64,000 nt of DNA, taken from assembly GCF_001887355.1 (NCBI RefSeq), contig NZ_MPIN01000008.1, positions 423,935 through 487,934 on the forward strand. The letters are read 5' to 3'. The notes under the pieces are model-generated. The model was given only the letters and a program-made list of their open reading frames with translations, was not told the DNA's origin and made no database searches. This stretch comes from Cystobacter ferrugineus. Lineage in GTDB: Bacteria; Myxococcota; Myxococcia; Myxococcales; Myxococcaceae. Both the position numbers and the translations under genes were made by a program. Positions 19,137 to 25,680 of the stretch are shown here, in pieces (position 1 is the first letter of the stretch; every line of letters starts with the position of its first letter).

Positions 19137-19844
19137 CTATTCTTCATTCTTGGGGAAGCACACCAGCAATCGCTGGTCGCGCTCGCGCTGGTAACCAACG
19201 GTGAGCATTTCCCCACCCACCTGCACGGAAGCGCCATGAGGAGGACGCGGATGTTTTCTCAGCCATGACTCCGCCTCTTCACGTGTAGCGAAGGAGCAGA
19301 GGAGAGGCAGCGGCTCGTCGAGGTGTGCCAGGAACCGGGCGAAGTCCCGCGTGCAGCCCGCCTCGCGGATGAAGTGAAGGGCCAGCGCGGCGGAGTGGAG
19401 CCCCTCCAGGTCATCCGGTGAAGAGCTGAGTGCGGAATGAGCCTCGTCGAGCGCGCGCCAGAGCCGCTCCCGCCCCTCCTCTCCACCCGGTCTCCACAGG
19501 TCTTCAATGCGAGGAAGCAGCAACAGCAGGGGTTCTCCACTCGCGCGGGAGTAGCCGAGGGTATAGCGCTCTCGCGCGATCCGCAGGGACCCGCTTGGAG
19601 GCGGCTCGGAGTGAGTCTTCAACCAGGCGTCGAACTCTTCCCGGCTGGAGAAGGAGCCAAGGGATGGAAGAGAGATGCCTGTGAATGCAGCGAGGTAATC
19701 CTCGAAGTTCTGCCCGTGCCCATCGAGCAGGACGTAGGAGACATTCAAAGCAGGAAGGAGAGCCTCGGCGAGTTCGGATGAGGCACCGAGAGCGTCTTGG
19801 GCCTTGCGAATGGCACCCACAACTCTGTCCACATCGAGACTCAT
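19137..19844 (-). CDS. Hypothetical protein made of two repeats
   Basis: 235 residues from ATG 19844 (TTG 19850 also possible). The protein is an internal duplication: a helical half leading to LGSFSSREEFDAWLKTH (~62-78), then a strand-rich LRIARERYTLGYSR. The same order recurs as LLCSFATREEAESWLRKH (~180-197) and VQVGGEMLTVGYQRER at the C-terminus. The linking region (ALDEAHSALSSSPDDLEGL) parallels the N-terminal IRKAQDALGASSELAEAL, so the repeat unit is about 115 residues. There is no signal peptide or membrane segment. I do not recognise the family. It lies next to the AT-rich restriction-modification island. Confidence 0.65.
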   Translation of the reverse strand: MSLDVDRVVGAIRKAQDALGASSELAEALLPALNVSYVLLDGHGQNFEDYLAAFTGISLPSLGSFSSREEFDAWLKTHSEPPPSGSLRIARERYTLGYSRASGEPLLLLLPRIEDLWRPGGEEGRERLWRALDEAHSALSSSPDDLEGLHSAALALHFIREAGCTRDFARFLAHLDEPLPLLCSFATREEAESWLRKHPRPPHGASVQVGGEMLTVGYQRERDQRLLVCFPKNEE

Positions 19845-20016
19845 TGCCAATCACCCGCACACAGCAGCGCTCCTGCGTTGTCCGCCGTGGCCATCAGGGG
19901 AATGTAACCATGAATAGCCGACGGTTTGCGCCGCATGCAATTCCGGCGACAGTTGATCTGCTCTTGATCACAGTCTCGACGGCAGCCACTATATAGCTAG
20001 CCAGCACCTGACACCG

Positions 20017-20038
20017 CATCCCAGATCAACCTGGGATG
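20017..20038. repeat. 8-bp stem hairpin in intergenic space
   Basis: CATCCCAG (20017-20024) and CTGGGATG (20031-20038) form a perfect stem with a 6-base loop. It lies 70 bases beyond the stop of the restriction-type gene and has no T-run. It could be a rho-dependent end signal or simply mark the left edge of the island. The surrounding 19845-20105 gap is AT-rich and shows no gene. Confidence 0.3.
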
Positions 20039-20105
20039 TCGGTACAAACGCACTAACGTGGCATTGCCGTCAGATGCCGTCGACACACACAGAACAGGAA
20101 AAAAA

Positions 20106-21230
20106 TCACTGAGAGGCGTCTTGGATTACCTCATCCAGCTCGACCTCCAGCTCGACATCGAACACACCTGGATTGATTTGTACACTATCAGCAGAGACCC
20201 CGGATGGCAGAGAATTCAGGCCCACGATGACCTGCGCGGTAACTGCCTGCACGCCAGTGAGGATTCGAAGCTTTGGCTTCAAACCAGCGACGTCGTACAA
20301 ACGTGCAATGCGGTAATTCGGACTTTTTGCAGCGAAGCGCAACTCGGCAAGGCTCATGTGCACCGGCCGATCAAATGACCCCCGTGTTGTTTTCACATCA
20401 ACGAACACGTGTGGTGTATTCTCAATCCACTTGGCGGCACGAACTTCGTAATCAAACGATGAGCGTGCATGGGTCTGAGAGACCCATTCGAACTCGTCCT
20501 CGTTGTAACCCTTGCTCACGAGCCAGTTTCCAAAGAGTTCTTCACCCTGTTGGCCAGTCTCCCCGGCAGCTAGGAGCTGTCGACGCAGTTCATGGGGCGA
20601 CATCGCCACAGACCGACCAGATGGTTGTGCATCCATCGATGCCGGAGCGGTGCTTCCGAAGAGTACTTCTTCGACTGTGTCTCGGGGAATGAGCGCGTCG
20701 AACGGGTGCTCGCCGACTGCATAGGCGTCGATGGTTGCAGCGCGCAGATTGACGATGGTTGCCTCCGGCACTTGCATCATGGAACTCCGGCCAGTGAAGT
20801 CGAAGAGGCCTGCAACAGCCGCACGTAGCTTGGCGTCACCATTGGCTGATACGAGGACGAGCGTCACGGCCTCAGGTCGTTCATTGCCCTCGAAGGACAT
20901 GATGGCGAAGTCGTTTGCCGCAAGTCCGTCATAACGACCCGGCTCGCCATCGGGGTCATGAATGAACTCTCCGTTAAGACGCCAGTTCTTTGCAGCCGGC
21001 GAGCGCAGTGCTTTTCGAGTCAGGCGGTGAGCCGCCCTTCCCCCTGGGCCAACAATCGTGAAGGGAAAAACCACCGGGTCATAGAGCCCTTTAAGCCCCG
21101 GATAGAAACGATCGATAAAGACGTCACTATTAAGATTGATCGCCTTTTGCTTCGAAAGTCGCAGATGGACCTTGAAAAATGACAGATCCGAAGATGACAG
21201 CGACTTGATTGCGATCTTGGCACTGCTCAT
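20106..21230 (-). CDS. DUF3883/PD-(D/E)XK-like protein, probable restriction endonuclease
   Basis: About 374 residues. The N-terminal ~230 residues are unassigned. The C-terminal part has the look of the DUF3883 nuclease-like fold: GEELFGNWLVSKGY, EFEWVSQTHARSSFDYEV, FVDVKTTRGSFDRPVHMS and YRIARLYDV. The acidic residue in FDYEV (~260) and DVKTT (~277) fit a PD-(D/E)XK active site with D-x-K. It sits 35 bases downstream of a C5 methyltransferase in the same direction, so it is most likely the cognate nuclease. The start is ATG 21230 or GTG 21236. The base composition is markedly AT-richer than the chromosome. Recognition site unknown. Confidence 0.68.
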   Translation of the reverse strand: MSSAKIAIKSLSSSDLSFFKVHLRLSKQKAINLNSDVFIDRFYPGLKGLYDPVVFPFTIVGPGGRAAHRLTRKALRSPAAKNWRLNGEFIHDPDGEPGRYDGLAANDFAIMSFEGNERPEAVTLVLVSANGDAKLRAAVAGLFDFTGRSSMMQVPEATIVNLRAATIDAYAVGEHPFDALIPRDTVEEVLFGSTAPASMDAQPSGRSVAMSPHELRRQLLAAGETGQQGEELFGNWLVSKGYNEDEFEWVSQTHARSSFDYEVRAAKWIENTPHVFVDVKTTRGSFDRPVHMSLAELRFAAKSPNYRIARLYDVAGLKPKLRILTGVQAVTAQVIVGLNSLPSGVSADSVQINPGVFDVELEVELDEVIQDASQ

Positions 21231-21265
21231 ATCCACCCACCCAGGTCTTCAAGGCACTTCAGTTC

Positions 21266-22786
21266 TCAAACGGCTGCACTGGTCTGCACCTTCGCCTCGC
21301 GATGAGTTTCGACAGTCACATGGCGTGCGACACCTATCGCCGCGAGCAGTGGCTCCGCAAGCGCATAAGCCAGGAGCGGAGGTACCGCGTTACCAATCTG
21401 CCTGAAGGCGGGATTCATCGTACCCGAGAATTCGAATCCATCCGGGAACGACTGAAGGCGGGCTGCTTCACGCACTGAGAGGACACGTGACTGGTCGCTG
21501 TCGTAGTGGATGTGGCTGTACGAGTCCTTACCCAAATGGGCCATCAAGGTACGAGCCGGCTCATCTGGCTCCATTTTGCGCCACTTGTTCGGGAACTTCC
21601 CTGGGTCGTATGGCGGCACATAGTCGCTGCGGAGCGCTTCGTAATCGGCCGAGCCGGGCTCGATCTGGCGCCCCGCTCGTTTCTCTTCAGCGAGGCGTTT
21701 GGCGAACAAACGCTCAGCCAAAGCGTACGCCTTCGGGTAATCGTCACCCCAACGCATGAAACGAAAGAGCCGGTAATCGCGGTCACTGAGCGATCGAATG
21801 GCGTGATCCCAGATCTGACCGTCACCCTCGAAGCCGGGCCAAGTTCGCATCAGATGGGCATAGTCGGAAGGCACCACATCCGGGTGATAGGTAACCGCAT
21901 TGTCGAACCGTCTTGCTCCACGGCGAATGCTTCCTTCGAGGTGGCCGGTGATCGGAGGGAGGTCTCCGATCGCCTCACGCACCGTTACAGGCGGGCGTCT
22001 CGTTCGCTTGGCTTCGGGTGTCGGAACGTATCGGGTCCGCGGCGCGAAGAGGTCGCCGAAGACGATGTGCTTCAAGGCGACATCACGCGAGCCTTGATAG
22101 CCGGACGGAAAATCGACCTTCCGTGTTGGAACTGGGAACGAAAAATAAGCACCTGCGGCTTCATGGATGCCCACCAGGATGAACCGCTCCCTCATCTGAG
22201 GTACGCCATAGTTCGCTGCGTTGACGAGCGTGTAGGAGCAGCGATAGCCCAGTCCTTCGAGGACCTCACAAACCTCCTCGGCCAAGTTGTGCCCGCCGAA
22301 ATTGAGAATGTCCGGCACATTCTCCATGAGAAGGGCAACAGGTTTGAGCGCTTTCACGTACTCAAGATATGGCAGGTAGAGTTTGGCCCTGGGATCGTGG
22401 CGGAACGCCTCGGGGTGCTCTTGAACCTCGCGCAGCTTCGCACGTCCCACGCGGGTGAAGGCCGGGCACGGTGGACCGCCAACCAGGATGTCAACTTCGT
22501 ACTCGGGCTTTTTGACGCCAAAGGATTGGAGCAGGGCGTGCGGCCCTGTGACCGTAATGTCCTTCGGTGACGCATGCGCCTCGAAGAGTTCGGGCGGCAG
22601 ATGCCGGTGGAAGTTGAGTGCGTGAGAGCGAGCGGCGTGCTCATCGAACTCCACGCCGCCGACGACCTCACAACCGGCGCGGTGAAAACCGAGGGTCAGG
22701 CCTCCACACCCCGAGAACAGGTCCAGCAAGCGCGGGCGATCTCCGCGCGCCAAGCGGTCGAGTTTGTAGTCGATAGGTCGAAGCAT
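21266..22786 (-). CDS. DNA (cytosine-5-)-methyltransferase
   Basis: 506 residues with C5-methylase motifs in linear order: I DLFSGCGGL (22-30), IV GGPPCPAFT with the catalytic Cys near 105, VI LLMENVPD (~154), VIII QMRERFILVG (~197), IX REAARLQSFPDGF and X RQIGNAVPP (~467). The target-recognition region is the ~200 residues between VIII and IX. Motif IV reads PCP rather than the commoner PCQ. It methylates DNA to protect it from the partner nuclease encoded just downstream, and a Vsr gene upstream repairs the T:G mismatches that arise from deaminated 5-methylcytosine. Target sequence unknown. Confidence 0.93.
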   Translation of the reverse strand: MLRPIDYKLDRLARGDRPRLLDLFSGCGGLTLGFHRAGCEVVGGVEFDEHAARSHALNFHRHLPPELFEAHASPKDITVTGPHALLQSFGVKKPEYEVDILVGGPPCPAFTRVGRAKLREVQEHPEAFRHDPRAKLYLPYLEYVKALKPVALLMENVPDILNFGGHNLAEEVCEVLEGLGYRCSYTLVNAANYGVPQMRERFILVGIHEAAGAYFSFPVPTRKVDFPSGYQGSRDVALKHIVFGDLFAPRTRYVPTPEAKRTRRPPVTVREAIGDLPPITGHLEGSIRRGARRFDNAVTYHPDVVPSDYAHLMRTWPGFEGDGQIWDHAIRSLSDRDYRLFRFMRWGDDYPKAYALAERLFAKRLAEEKRAGRQIEPGSADYEALRSDYVPPYDPGKFPNKWRKMEPDEPARTLMAHLGKDSYSHIHYDSDQSRVLSVREAARLQSFPDGFEFSGTMNPAFRQIGNAVPPLLAYALAEPLLAAIGVARHVTVETHREAKVQTSAAV

Positions 22787-22985
22787 GGGGTTCTAGGTTC
22801 CTACCGCTTGGCGGTGCCCGGTGTCCGTCTTGGTCTTCTCGAAGAACAGGTCCAACAGCCGCAGCGACGCGCCCGCTCGAGTGTTCATCGACTTCCTCTG
22901 GATGCTCGAGACCATTCCATGGGGCTTATAGCGCAGCGGATTCGGCTCGCCACATCCTGCCTGCAAGCTACAAGCCGCTACCGTA

Positions 22986-23540
22986 CTACCCGTGTGACCT
23001 CTTCCACTTCTTCGTGCTGCGCTTGGCCACTACCGACCGCCGCGGCTCGGTGCCTCGCAGGTCCTCCAGCCAGCGCTGTTCCATGTCCTCCTCTCCAGGC
23101 AGCGCATCGACCAGCACGACCCTCCAGGAGGCAGGCGGGCTCCATTCTTCGCTTTGAAGCGCCGCTCGGACGATCTCTACGACCCCAGGTAGCGACTCGA
23201 AAATCTGGTGCTCCCAGAAACGGCAGATGCGCCAGCCCTCCGCTTCGAGGTGGAGCGTCTGCCGCCGGTCCCTCTCCACGTTCTCAAGCAACTTGGAGGA
23301 CCAGAACTCGTTACGCGTCCGGGGCCGGACGTAGTGCTCGGGGCATCCATGCCAGAAACAGCCGTCCAGGAAGACGGCCACCCTGGCCTTGGAGAAGACC
23401 ACATCGGGTCGACCATAAGGCGTCCTGGACTGAAGCCGGAAGCGCATGCCTGCCCGCCAGAGGGCTGAGCGGAGGAGACGTTCAGGGGAGGTGTCCCTGC
23501 CGCGGATCCTCGACATCTGCTCGGAGCGGGTAAGACCCAT
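22986..23540 (-). CDS. vsr: Very short patch repair endonuclease (Vsr)
   Basis: About 184 residues from ATG 23540, which has an AGGAG ribosome-binding site 8 bases upstream; an in-frame ATG at 23564 has a poorer one. Family motifs are clear: TRSEQMSRIRGRDTSPE, RFRLQSRTPYGRPDVVF (catalytic Asp), VAVFLDGCFWHGCPEHY (metal/structural His and Cys), NVERDRRQTLHLEAEGW and RFWEHQIFE. Vsr nicks 5' of the T in T:G mismatches within the methylase site. The C-terminus extends ~45 residues beyond the usual end, with a basic tail. First gene of the leftward RM unit, 199 bases from the methyltransferase. Confidence 0.92.
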   Translation of the reverse strand: MGLTRSEQMSRIRGRDTSPERLLRSALWRAGMRFRLQSRTPYGRPDVVFSKARVAVFLDGCFWHGCPEHYVRPRTRNEFWSSKLLENVERDRRQTLHLEAEGWRICRFWEHQIFESLPGVVEIVRAALQSEEWSPPASWRVVLVDALPGEEDMEQRWLEDLRGTEPRRSVVAKRSTKKWKRSHG

Positions 23541-23686
23541 GTCGCCTCTCCTTCGGGTGTTCATCCCGCTTCGGTGGTAATGCGAGCCTGTACAGGACAG
23601 GGTAGATTCCAGAGGGGGGGGGATCTTGGCGCCAACTACTCTAAAGGTAAAGAGGAATGAACCAACTTCTCAGAAGCGGTAGCTGC

Positions 23687-23721
23687 TGACGTAGTCACCG
23701 AACCATTTCAGGGCTACGTCA
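23687..23721. repeat. Inverted repeat TGACGTAG/CTACGTCA
   Basis: A perfect 8-bp inverted repeat, TGACGTAG (23687-23694) and CTACGTCA (23714-23721), separated by 19 bases just outside the right edge of the low-GC island. It could be an operator or an insertion-border relic; no matching copy was noticed at the left border. Confidence 0.3.
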
Positions 23722-23807
23722 CGCCATCAAGGCGCACCTCTCCGGCCCCGGATTCTCTCCCGTCCACAATACAGGTTGTGCCACCCTGCTGGCAGCGACT
23801 GACCGCC

Positions 23808-24113
23808 TCAGATGGGCGGAGCCGCCGGGAAGCTCCCTGGCATGACCTCCCAGGGGTAATCCGCCAGTTGCTCGATGAAGACGAGAAGCGGTTGGGTTTC
23901 GAGTGGCGTTCCGCTGCTGTCCGCCGCCTCGAGAGGGACGGCCGACGGCCGCAGCCCGGGGCCAAGGCGAAACAAGGTGGGCCGCGAGTGGATTCCGAAG
24001 CCGGTTCTCAGGCTCCCTCGCGGATGACCCGTGGCGCCCCCTCCGAGTAGCACGACCATTACCAGGGACAGGAAGACCATGCCGCGTTGGCGGCACGGGG
24101 AACGAGAAGCCAT
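23808..24113 (-). CDS. Possible small secreted protein, 101 aa (weak)
   Basis: From the ATG at 24113 the reading frame begins with a basic stretch and a hydrophobic core (MVFLSLVMVVLLGGGATG) that could be a signal peptide, then ~75 residues with no recognisable motif. The opposite strand is open over much of the same span, coding bias is not decisive, and no good ribosome-binding site is seen. It may be a real small exported protein, a gene remnant or chance. Confidence 0.3.
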   Translation of the reverse strand: MASRSPCRQRGMVFLSLVMVVLLGGGATGHPRGSLRTGFGIHSRPTLFRLGPGLRPSAVPLEAADSSGTPLETQPLLVFIEQLADYPWEVMPGSFPAAPPI

Positions 24114-24270
24114 AAGGGCGAATGGCTTCACGTCAGAAGCATGACGTGTATCCACGGGTGCCGCCAGAGCACCCACGCTCACATTGAGTTCAGCCGCGCG
24201 TACAAGCCATGGAGCCCACAAAGGACTTCCCTGCCCGGCACGGGGAAGGCCGGACAGGGACGAAACGAGA

Positions 24271-25680
24271 TCAGGCGACCGACGCTATCTTCCCGTTGGC
24301 CTCGGCGAGCAACTTCTCGGCGAGTTGACGCTTGCCATCGGCGTCGAGCTTCTTCAGCTCGTTGTTCAGCACGCGCTCGTTGAGCGACTGATTCCAGTAG
24401 TCGAGCGACTGCGTGCCGAGCAGGGCCATCTTGCCAACGAATTGACGCAGCACTTCGTTGGTCGGGCCCATGACCCAGCCCGCCTTGGCGTCGCGCAGAT
24501 AGCGTTCGATGCCGAGCGCCGGCTTGTAGCCCGTACCACCACAGGCATGCAGCATCTTGTCCGAGACGTGCGCGACGTTCTTCGCGGCGATGAACTTCAC
24601 CTGCCACATCCAATGCAGGTACTGGGCGCGGGGCATGGCGCTCGGCTCCTCGTGCAGGGACCAATCACAATTGTTCGTGGCCGCATCCAGCGCCTGCCCC
24701 ATCTGATAATCCAAGGCGCGCGCGGCATTGGTGTCCATGATGCACTCGCCGACGTAGTCCTGGATGGTCGGGTAGTCGGCGACGCGCATGCCCACATCGA
24801 CGTGGGTCTTGCGGGTCGTGTGGCTCTTCGCGATGTCGATCATTCCCAGCGCGATGCCATTCCAGCAGGCGGACGAACACAGCAGGAAGAAGGGATCGAC
24901 ACACTCGTCATTGGACGTCGCGCCGTCCCCCACCGGGCCCACCAGCCGGTTCCTCGGGATCTCCACGTTGTCGATCTCGATGGGGCCGGATTGATTGCCG
25001 CGCAGACCCAGGCCATTCCAGTTGGCGGGATCGGACTTCACCTCGTCGGCCAGGATGAGGAAGCAGGAGAGGTTGGCGTAGTTGCCGCCGAAGTTGGGGC
25101 TGGTGGTCTGCACGATGTACCAGTCAGCGAAACCACCCGAGGTGGTCCAGGAGGCCTTCTTGCGCACGCGCCAGCCATTGGGTGTCTCCTCGGCACCCGA
25201 CGAGACCGGGTACCAGAAGTGCGAGCCGGTCTCGGGGTCGGAATAGGACAGCGTGCCGATGAGACAGTCCTTGTCGATGCGCTTGAAGATGTCCTGCAGG
25301 ACCGGACTGTCGTGATGGCGGAGGAGACCGGCGGCGACCGCCCCCAGGTGCATGGTGTAACACATGGCGGTGCTCGCACAGCCGTAGCGCGCGAGGGTCT
25401 CGACGACCATGGCGGCGCAGACGTGGTTCTGCCCCATGCCCCCCAACTCCTTCGGCACCAGCAGGCCGAGCAGTCCGAGCTTCGCCAGCTCCTGGAGGTT
25501 CTTGCGTGGATAGACGAGCCGCGCATCGCTCTCCACGGCATTCGCGCGCAGCGTGGTCCGGCACAGCTCGATCAGCGCGGCCTGGAGCTTCTTCTGCTCG
25601 TCGGTCAGGATCCACTGGGGATCGAACTCGAATCCCAGACCCCAGAACTCCTCACCCCCCCACGTCTTCTTGTTGCTCAT
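24271..25680 (-). CDS. Acyl-CoA dehydrogenase family protein
   Basis: 469 residues. Family order: helical N-terminal domain with LAKLGLLGLLVPKELGGMGQ, FAD/substrate middle domain (IGTLSYSDPETGSHFW, TSGGFADWYIVQT), NVEIPRNRLVG, and C-terminal helical domain with MLHACGGTGYKPALGIERYLRDAKAG followed by GPTNEVLR. Such enzymes take two hydrogens from an acyl-CoA or similar substrate, passing electrons to ETF. The usual Glu of IYEGT is replaced in VMGPTNEV, so the exact chemistry is uncertain; family members also act on nitro compounds or in secondary metabolism. It stands alone on its strand, divergent from an aminotransferase. Confidence 0.85.
   Translation of the reverse strand: MSNKKTWGGEEFWGLGFEFDPQWILTDEQKKLQAALIELCRTTLRANAVESDARLVYPRKNLQELAKLGLLGLLVPKELGGMGQNHVCAAMVVETLARYGCASTAMCYTMHLGAVAAGLLRHHDSPVLQDIFKRIDKDCLIGTLSYSDPETGSHFWYPVSSGAEETPNGWRVRKKASWTTSGGFADWYIVQTTSPNFGGNYANLSCFLILADEVKSDPANWNGLGLRGNQSGPIEIDNVEIPRNRLVGPVGDGATSNDECVDPFFLLCSSACWNGIALGMIDIAKSHTTRKTHVDVGMRVADYPTIQDYVGECIMDTNAARALDYQMGQALDAATNNCDWSLHEEPSAMPRAQYLHWMWQVKFIAAKNVAHVSDKMLHACGGTGYKPALGIERYLRDAKAGWVMGPTNEVLRQFVGKMALLGTQSLDYWNQSLNERVLNNELKKLDADGKRQLAEKLLAEANGKIASVA

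Follow-up and report, generated by a model that had tools for sequence, protein, structure and literature searches.

The stretch of Cystobacter ferrugineus DNA analysed here comprises 64,000 nucleotides (contig NZ_MPIN01000008.1, positions 423,935 to 487,934; hereafter the window) and carries a three-gene unit read leftward in the order Vsr, C5 cytosine DNA methyltransferase (MTase), DUF3883-type protein, with a gap of 30 bp between the last two. The third gene encodes a candidate restriction endonuclease (REase) of the NOV_C (DUF3883) family with a B3-like head. The features of the locus are as follows, with protein lengths in amino acids (aa):

20106..21236, minus strand: B3-NOV_C (DUF3883) restriction endonuclease candidate, 376 aa (open reading frame [ORF], family alignment, model)
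20682..21236, minus strand: predicted N-terminal B3-like DNA-recognition domain, about residues 1-185, with KNWRLNGE at 83-90 (VIA-align)
20136..20603, minus strand: predicted C-terminal PD-(D/E)XK (NOV_C) nuclease domain, about residues 212-367, with E232, D262, D280 and K282 (conserved residues, model, VIA-align)
21266..22786, minus strand: C5 cytosine DNA methyltransferase, 506 aa (PF00145, 2.8e-54)
22986..23564, minus strand: Vsr T:G mismatch endonuclease, 192 aa (TIGR00632, 3.9e-39; PDB 1cw0)
19847..24264, no strand: segment of 4.4 kb replaced relative to the congener G003 (blastn against L050 and L051)

The B3-NOV_C ORF yields 376 aa if translation starts at a GTG codon and 374 aa if it starts at an ATG two codons in; Vsr has 192 aa, or 184 aa counted from a second Met at 23540. 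The identities of Vsr and the C5 methyltransferase are beyond doubt. In addition to its PF00145 match, the MTase scores 167.5 bits against TIGR00675 (cut-off 100.65), carries motif IV as GGPPCPAF in its translation, and is 82% identical to the copy in Myxococcus eversor. Vsr scores 133.6 bits against TIGR00632 (cut-off 97.85) and 83.7 against PF03852 (cut-off 27), and matches PDB entry 1cw0 with an E value of 2.3e-23.

The unit lies in DNA of distinctly lower GC content (0.56-0.61 at 20-23 kb, against about 0.70 across most of the window). The genes flanking it are 93-96% identical at the DNA level in two congeners (G002 and G003), and segment 19847-24264 has no counterpart in G003 by blastn, the slot there being occupied by 2.37 kb of unrelated DNA containing a 375-aa ORF; the alignment with G002 ends at 19148 on one side and picks up again at 24271. 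Of 59 relatives, none but the genome of the window itself has a B3-NOV_C protein. Horizontal acquisition of the three-gene unit, recent in this genome, is thus supported, and the first-pass annotation, which had described a Vsr gene, a C5 methyltransferase with a PCP motif IV and a third leftward gene in foreign, low-GC DNA, is borne out on each of these points. No tRNA gene is present in the window. Beside the replaced segment, positions 19137-19850 encode a 237-aa protein of two similar halves and no confident family, which is kept in G003 at the segment's edge.

Sequence searches place the third protein by its relatives. Taken alone, it has no Pfam match at E<=1, while at the same threshold PF13020 (NOV_C) is matched by 26 of 34 family members (best 1.2e-9; L023 reaches 35.4 bits against a cut-off of 22.1) and annotated relatives bear the name 'DUF3883 domain-containing'; its own membership of NOV_C/DUF3883 therefore rests on full-length homology. 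Against PADLOC, matches are confined to the C-terminal part (TmtA, 3e-7; PDC-S36, 7e-6), and searches of solved structures by single sequence or profile return no credible relative. The EcoRII profile is absent among the 18 Pfam families matched by the 34 members at E<=1, and hence the N-terminus is classed as a B3-like fold only. Two alignments were used: A3, of 31 members (omitting L002-L004, L014 and L036), and A4, which omits L027 too; L005 and L080 are one locus and are counted once per comparison.

The full-length AlphaFold2 model built from A3 (mean predicted local distance difference test score [pLDDT] 88.6) consists of two domains joined by a low-confidence linker at residues 186-209, and its predicted template modelling score (pTM) of 0.56 is as expected, since the two domains have free relative placement. 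In VIA-align, residues 3-164 superpose on EcoRII-N bound to cognate DNA (3hqf; Z 11.7, root-mean-square deviation 3.0, 140 residues aligned), residues 2-184 on BfiI-C (3zi5; Z 11.2), and residues 6-159 on LlaJI.R1-N (6c5d; Z 10.6). All of the top five rows for the N-terminus are B3 domains of restriction enzymes, with plant B3 domains (Z 7-8) and the UbaLAI B3 domain (Z 7.2) lower down, and in the full model these three B3 rows exceed the nuclease rows (8.8 and below). The predicted N-terminus thus has a B3-like DNA-recognition fold of the EcoRII-N type, with the KNWR motif in one of its strands. KNWR was the pattern used to scan the genome contigs, so its invariance among those finds is by construction; five further copies, found by tblastn (plasmids) or with hidden Markov models (genomes), are free of this selection.

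Modelled separately, the C-terminal part reaches pLDDT 93.5 and pTM 0.87 and aligns with NhoI (Z 9.0), SPARDA nucleases (8.8), Hjc (8.4), DpnI (8.1), and PvuII (7.6). E232, D262, and K282 are retained in all 31 rows of the alignment, while residue 280 varies between D (26 rows) and E (the other five)—conservation for which the search did not select. By predicted fold and by its E-D-(D/E)xK residues, the C-terminus is a PD-(D/E)XK nuclease, in agreement with the nuclease-like pattern remarked on at first reading. The accompanying suggestion that the N-terminal region is a novel target-recognition module holds in part: on the model, target recognition is very likely its role, but the fold itself is a known one.

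Linkage to the MTase is near-universal. The same C5 subfamily is present at 31 of 32 genome loci, within 700 bp of the B3-NOV_C gene in 30 of the 31 and at 3.3 kb in L034; at the exception, L036, the contig stops 116 bp past the ORF and 3.5 kb away on the other side. Vsr accompanies 22 of the 32 (21 by phmmer, L026 by tblastn), and both partners occur at all three plasmid loci and all five viral-contig loci. Divergence of the B3-NOV_C protein and of the MTase is correlated across 31 loci (Mantel r 0.54, 0 of 5000 permutations; L001, L009, L014, L019, L025 and L036 omitted), a correlation to which shared descent contributes. The family itself is thinly spread: members occur in seven of 195 genomes of the phylum, in three of 72,556 plasmid records, on five viral contigs, and in none of 50,697 phage records. 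Its wider range takes in Cyanobacteria, Alpha-, Beta-, and Gammaproteobacteria, Planctomycetes, Chloroflexi, Bacteroidota, Deinococcus, and Acidobacteria, among others. The restriction-modification (R-M) identity given in the first-pass annotation is strengthened by these counts, whereas its remark that DUF3883 is uncommon with a C5 system is not: the pairing is a standing one rather than peculiar to the window, and DUF3883 already appears as a presumed REase in the available portion of PMC10609329. Both on a Deinococcus plasmid (L003:1627-5209) and in Myxococcus eversor (L005:3540-7417), the R-M unit has alongside it a cassette of three genes, one of which encodes a DUF6339 protein.

Copies that lack the MTase provide a natural experiment in which the partner is lost and the nuclease or its head is damaged. 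Seven myxobacterial genomes have a B3-NOV_C gene; in five of them neither MTase nor Vsr is detected within 16 kb, and all five of these orphans (L081-L085) are altered in the B3 motif and/or the nuclease centre: L081 (G104) has GNWH with D280H/K282R, L083 (G102) KNWH with D280N/K282R, L084 (G130) GRWC with D280C, L082 (G155) NGWC with an intact DxK, and L085 (G103) an intact DxK but no B3 head. KNWR and (D/E)xK are both retained in the five linked copies whose detection did not depend on a motif filter (the window, L080, L002, L003, and L004). The orphans are related to one another (L081 and L083 are 85% identical) and thus do not represent five independent events. Between L081 and L083, nonsynonymous divergence (dN, 0.08) is below synonymous divergence (dS, 0.30), so the dead copies may yet serve some purpose. 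G103 and G130 have a subfamily MTase elsewhere in the genome, with other partners. Convergent with the orphan gene in L081 is a gene for a TIR domain fused to DUF3427 (L081:5765-7327).

Taken together, the locus is probably a horizontally acquired, working Type II R-M unit, with the B3-headed NOV_C protein as its predicted REase. The MTase of the window has its motifs intact, and the nuclease encoded next to it has a complete set of catalytic residues. In the proposed mechanism, the B3-like head of the 376-aa protein would read a target sequence in double-stranded DNA, which the C-terminal PD-(D/E)XK domain would cut when unmethylated; the C5 methyltransferase would mark that sequence in the DNA of the host, and Vsr would repair T:G mismatches arising by deamination of those 5-methylcytosines. 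Gene content, linkage, foreign insertion, the two-domain fold of the model, conserved catalytic residues, and damage in MTase-less copies are computed directly; the mechanism further supposes that the B3 domain and the methyltransferase share one site and that methylation blocks cleavage. By analogy, the B3 domain could act either as the main reader, as in BfiI, or as an effector domain, as in EcoRII. On this proposal, an unannotated family of C5-linked restriction nucleases would gain a concrete two-domain mechanism and testable residues.

Several observations weigh against this assignment. Foldseek alone returns no match at E<=0.001 for either the full or the C-terminal model, and the fold assignments therefore rest on VIA-align and the conserved residues; its first ranks for the full model are glutamine synthetases, rejected as spurious at a TM score of 0.1. 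In Atlanticothrix (L009:9153-10037), an MTase with a large internal deletion adjoins an intact-looking B3-NOV_C nuclease, which may be an assembly error or a tolerated unprotected nuclease. A second possible effector also shares the MTase at three loci: an LlaJI-like pair of an AAA-type protein and DUF2357 at L002 and L034, and a GHKL/Z1/PD-(D/E)XK set at L004. Such loci lend some weight to the view that the DUF3883 protein is an accessory subunit of another MTase-sharing effector—LlaJI-like McrB/DUF2357 or GHKL/Z1—whose main component is missing in the window. The modules occur at only three of 35 loci (seed searches being limited to these modules), however, whereas the window and most other loci show the MTase, the DUF3883 protein, usually Vsr, and nothing more; moreover, the B3-NOV_C protein is predicted to carry recognition and nuclease domains of its own. 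An accessory role is considered unlikely.

Alternatively, the protein could be a modification-dependent (Type IV/IIM-like) nuclease with methylated DNA as its substrate. NhoI and DpnI both cleave DNA that is methylated, and both are among the best C-terminal fold rows, but Holliday resolvases and SPARDA nucleases are tied with them within 1 Z and PvuII comes next, so these rows do not discriminate and the sign was set aside. An enzyme cutting the sites methylated by its neighbour MTase would kill its own host, yet nearly every copy is linked to the MTase and the damage falls on copies without that link; this alternative has only a very slight chance of being correct. Nearly as improbable is a unit that has decayed or been domesticated, its B3 protein now regulating instead of cutting. 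The five orphans, with key residues lost and dN still below dS in the L081/L083 pair, show what such a state might look like, but the window copy has all the conserved residues, an intact MTase and Vsr, and a recent history of acquisition.

Beyond this Type II assignment, the MTase subfamily itself occurs in 17 of the 195 phylum genomes (E<=1e-60), of which 16 loci were examined (14 fetched, without G142, plus L080 and the window). B3-NOV_C is the neighbour in the window and L080; elsewhere the partners differ. A B3 head is found on a GHKL (MORC-like) ATPase at L093:8723-11458, L098:9252-11924, and L099:5402-7402, followed in L098 by a response-regulator-like gene, and a B3-headed 636-aa protein adjoins a HerA-like helicase and the same MTase and Vsr at L094 (5427-7337 and 3717-5423). 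Outside these 16 loci, L004:10431-12515 likewise encodes a GHKL (MORC-like) ATPase with a B3 head. GHKL and Z1 genes lie beside the MTase in L087, L088, L089, L095, and L096, and AIPR, GHKL, and Z1 in L092; the GHKL proteins of these six loci have no B3 match at E<=1e-3. The partner in L097 is an MZB-domain protein; L091 has no recognisable partner, and L086 and L090 are cut short by the ends of their contigs.

Profile alignment (hhalign) joins the B3-NOV_C heads to four of the other heads with a probability of 98.2% (E 4.7e-14), against 0.1-2.1% for three controls; the N-termini of the LlaJI-like AAA proteins (L002 and L034), also considered as B3 heads, were rejected at 0.6%. Among 3,544 ORFs, from loci picked for an MTase or a DUF3883 protein, five non-NOV ORFs have a B3 match, and all five are at MTase loci (L004, L093, L094, L098, and L099). 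As an independent check, the GHKL heads were compared with the 72,556 plasmid records, three of which are matched by each: a Rhodovastum ATP-binding protein, an unannotated stretch adjoining the MTase in Azospirillum sp. TSH58, and the Deinococcus actinosclerus B3-NOV_C protein (5e-5 and 3e-4). All three belong to the 19 records that hold the MTase. Plasmid MTase loci without B3-NOV_C have LlaJI-like or GHKL/Z1/AIPR partners, apart from L109, which has a hypothetical protein without assignment along with an ATP-binding protein of more distant kinship, and L111, which is without annotation.

These comparisons suggest a single core of methyltransferase and Vsr, served by a reader that can be moved between proteins and by effectors that can be swapped. 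We propose tentatively, with slightly more doubt than confidence, that the B3-like head has moved onto the NOV_C nuclease, onto MORC-like GHKL ATPases with Z1 helicases, and onto GHKL/histidine-kinase-like proteins beside a response-regulator-like gene, and that such 'two-component-like' GHKL elements might sense whether the MTase's own site is methylated, coupling this signal to ATPase-driven or signalling defence rather than direct cutting. From the shared head one would predict that several GHKL/MORC-type defence proteins, at present poorly understood, read the unmethylated site of the neighbouring methylase; if true, bacterial MORC-like proteins would gain a defined input.

One of the nearest known counterparts of the window unit is EcoRII (Type IIE), with which the B3-NOV_C protein shares a predicted N-terminal B3-like domain; EcoRII likewise has a C-terminal PD-(D/E)XK nuclease and C5 modification. 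Unlike EcoRII, the catalytic domain belongs to the NOV_C/DUF3883 clade, and none of the 34 members matches the EcoRII Pfam family. The B3-like fold is shared with the BfiI C-terminal domain, the LlaJI.R1 N-domain, and UbaLAI, but there the heads are fused to other catalytic domains, that of BfiI being of the phospholipase-D type. No description of a B3-DUF3883 enzyme was found in the open-access literature; the fold of the N-terminal domain is known, but its combination here is absent from the literature searched. The same nuclease domain family is listed as a presumed Type II REase group in an archaeal REBASE-based survey, the available portion of which gives no B3 head, Vsr link, or partner analysis (PMC10609329), and the excerpted text of a 2013 survey counts DUF3883 as a novel REase domain, though in another context, where it is fused to SNF2 (PMC3710099).

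Earlier work has already linked paraMORC ATPases to C5 methylases and Vsr (PMC2292703, PMC8011034), although the accessible parts of these two papers do not describe a B3 head fused to a GHKL protein or shared with a nuclease; the former notes a VP1/RAV (B3) protein as a separate component of SNF2-type operons, and the latter puts HATPase_c_3 at the sensor position of HEF_HK proteins. The B3-GHKL proteins resemble HEF_HK elements in architecture, but had no HEF_HK match that would place them in the same family. As far as those accounts extend, the MORC/paraMORC-Z1-Vsr-C5 MTase operons offer a similar MTase/Vsr setting, and some of the GHKL neighbours seen here carry a homologous B3 head; where the window has a fused NOV_C nuclease, however, these operons have a GHKL ATPase as effector, partnered by helicase/nuclease or response-regulator proteins.

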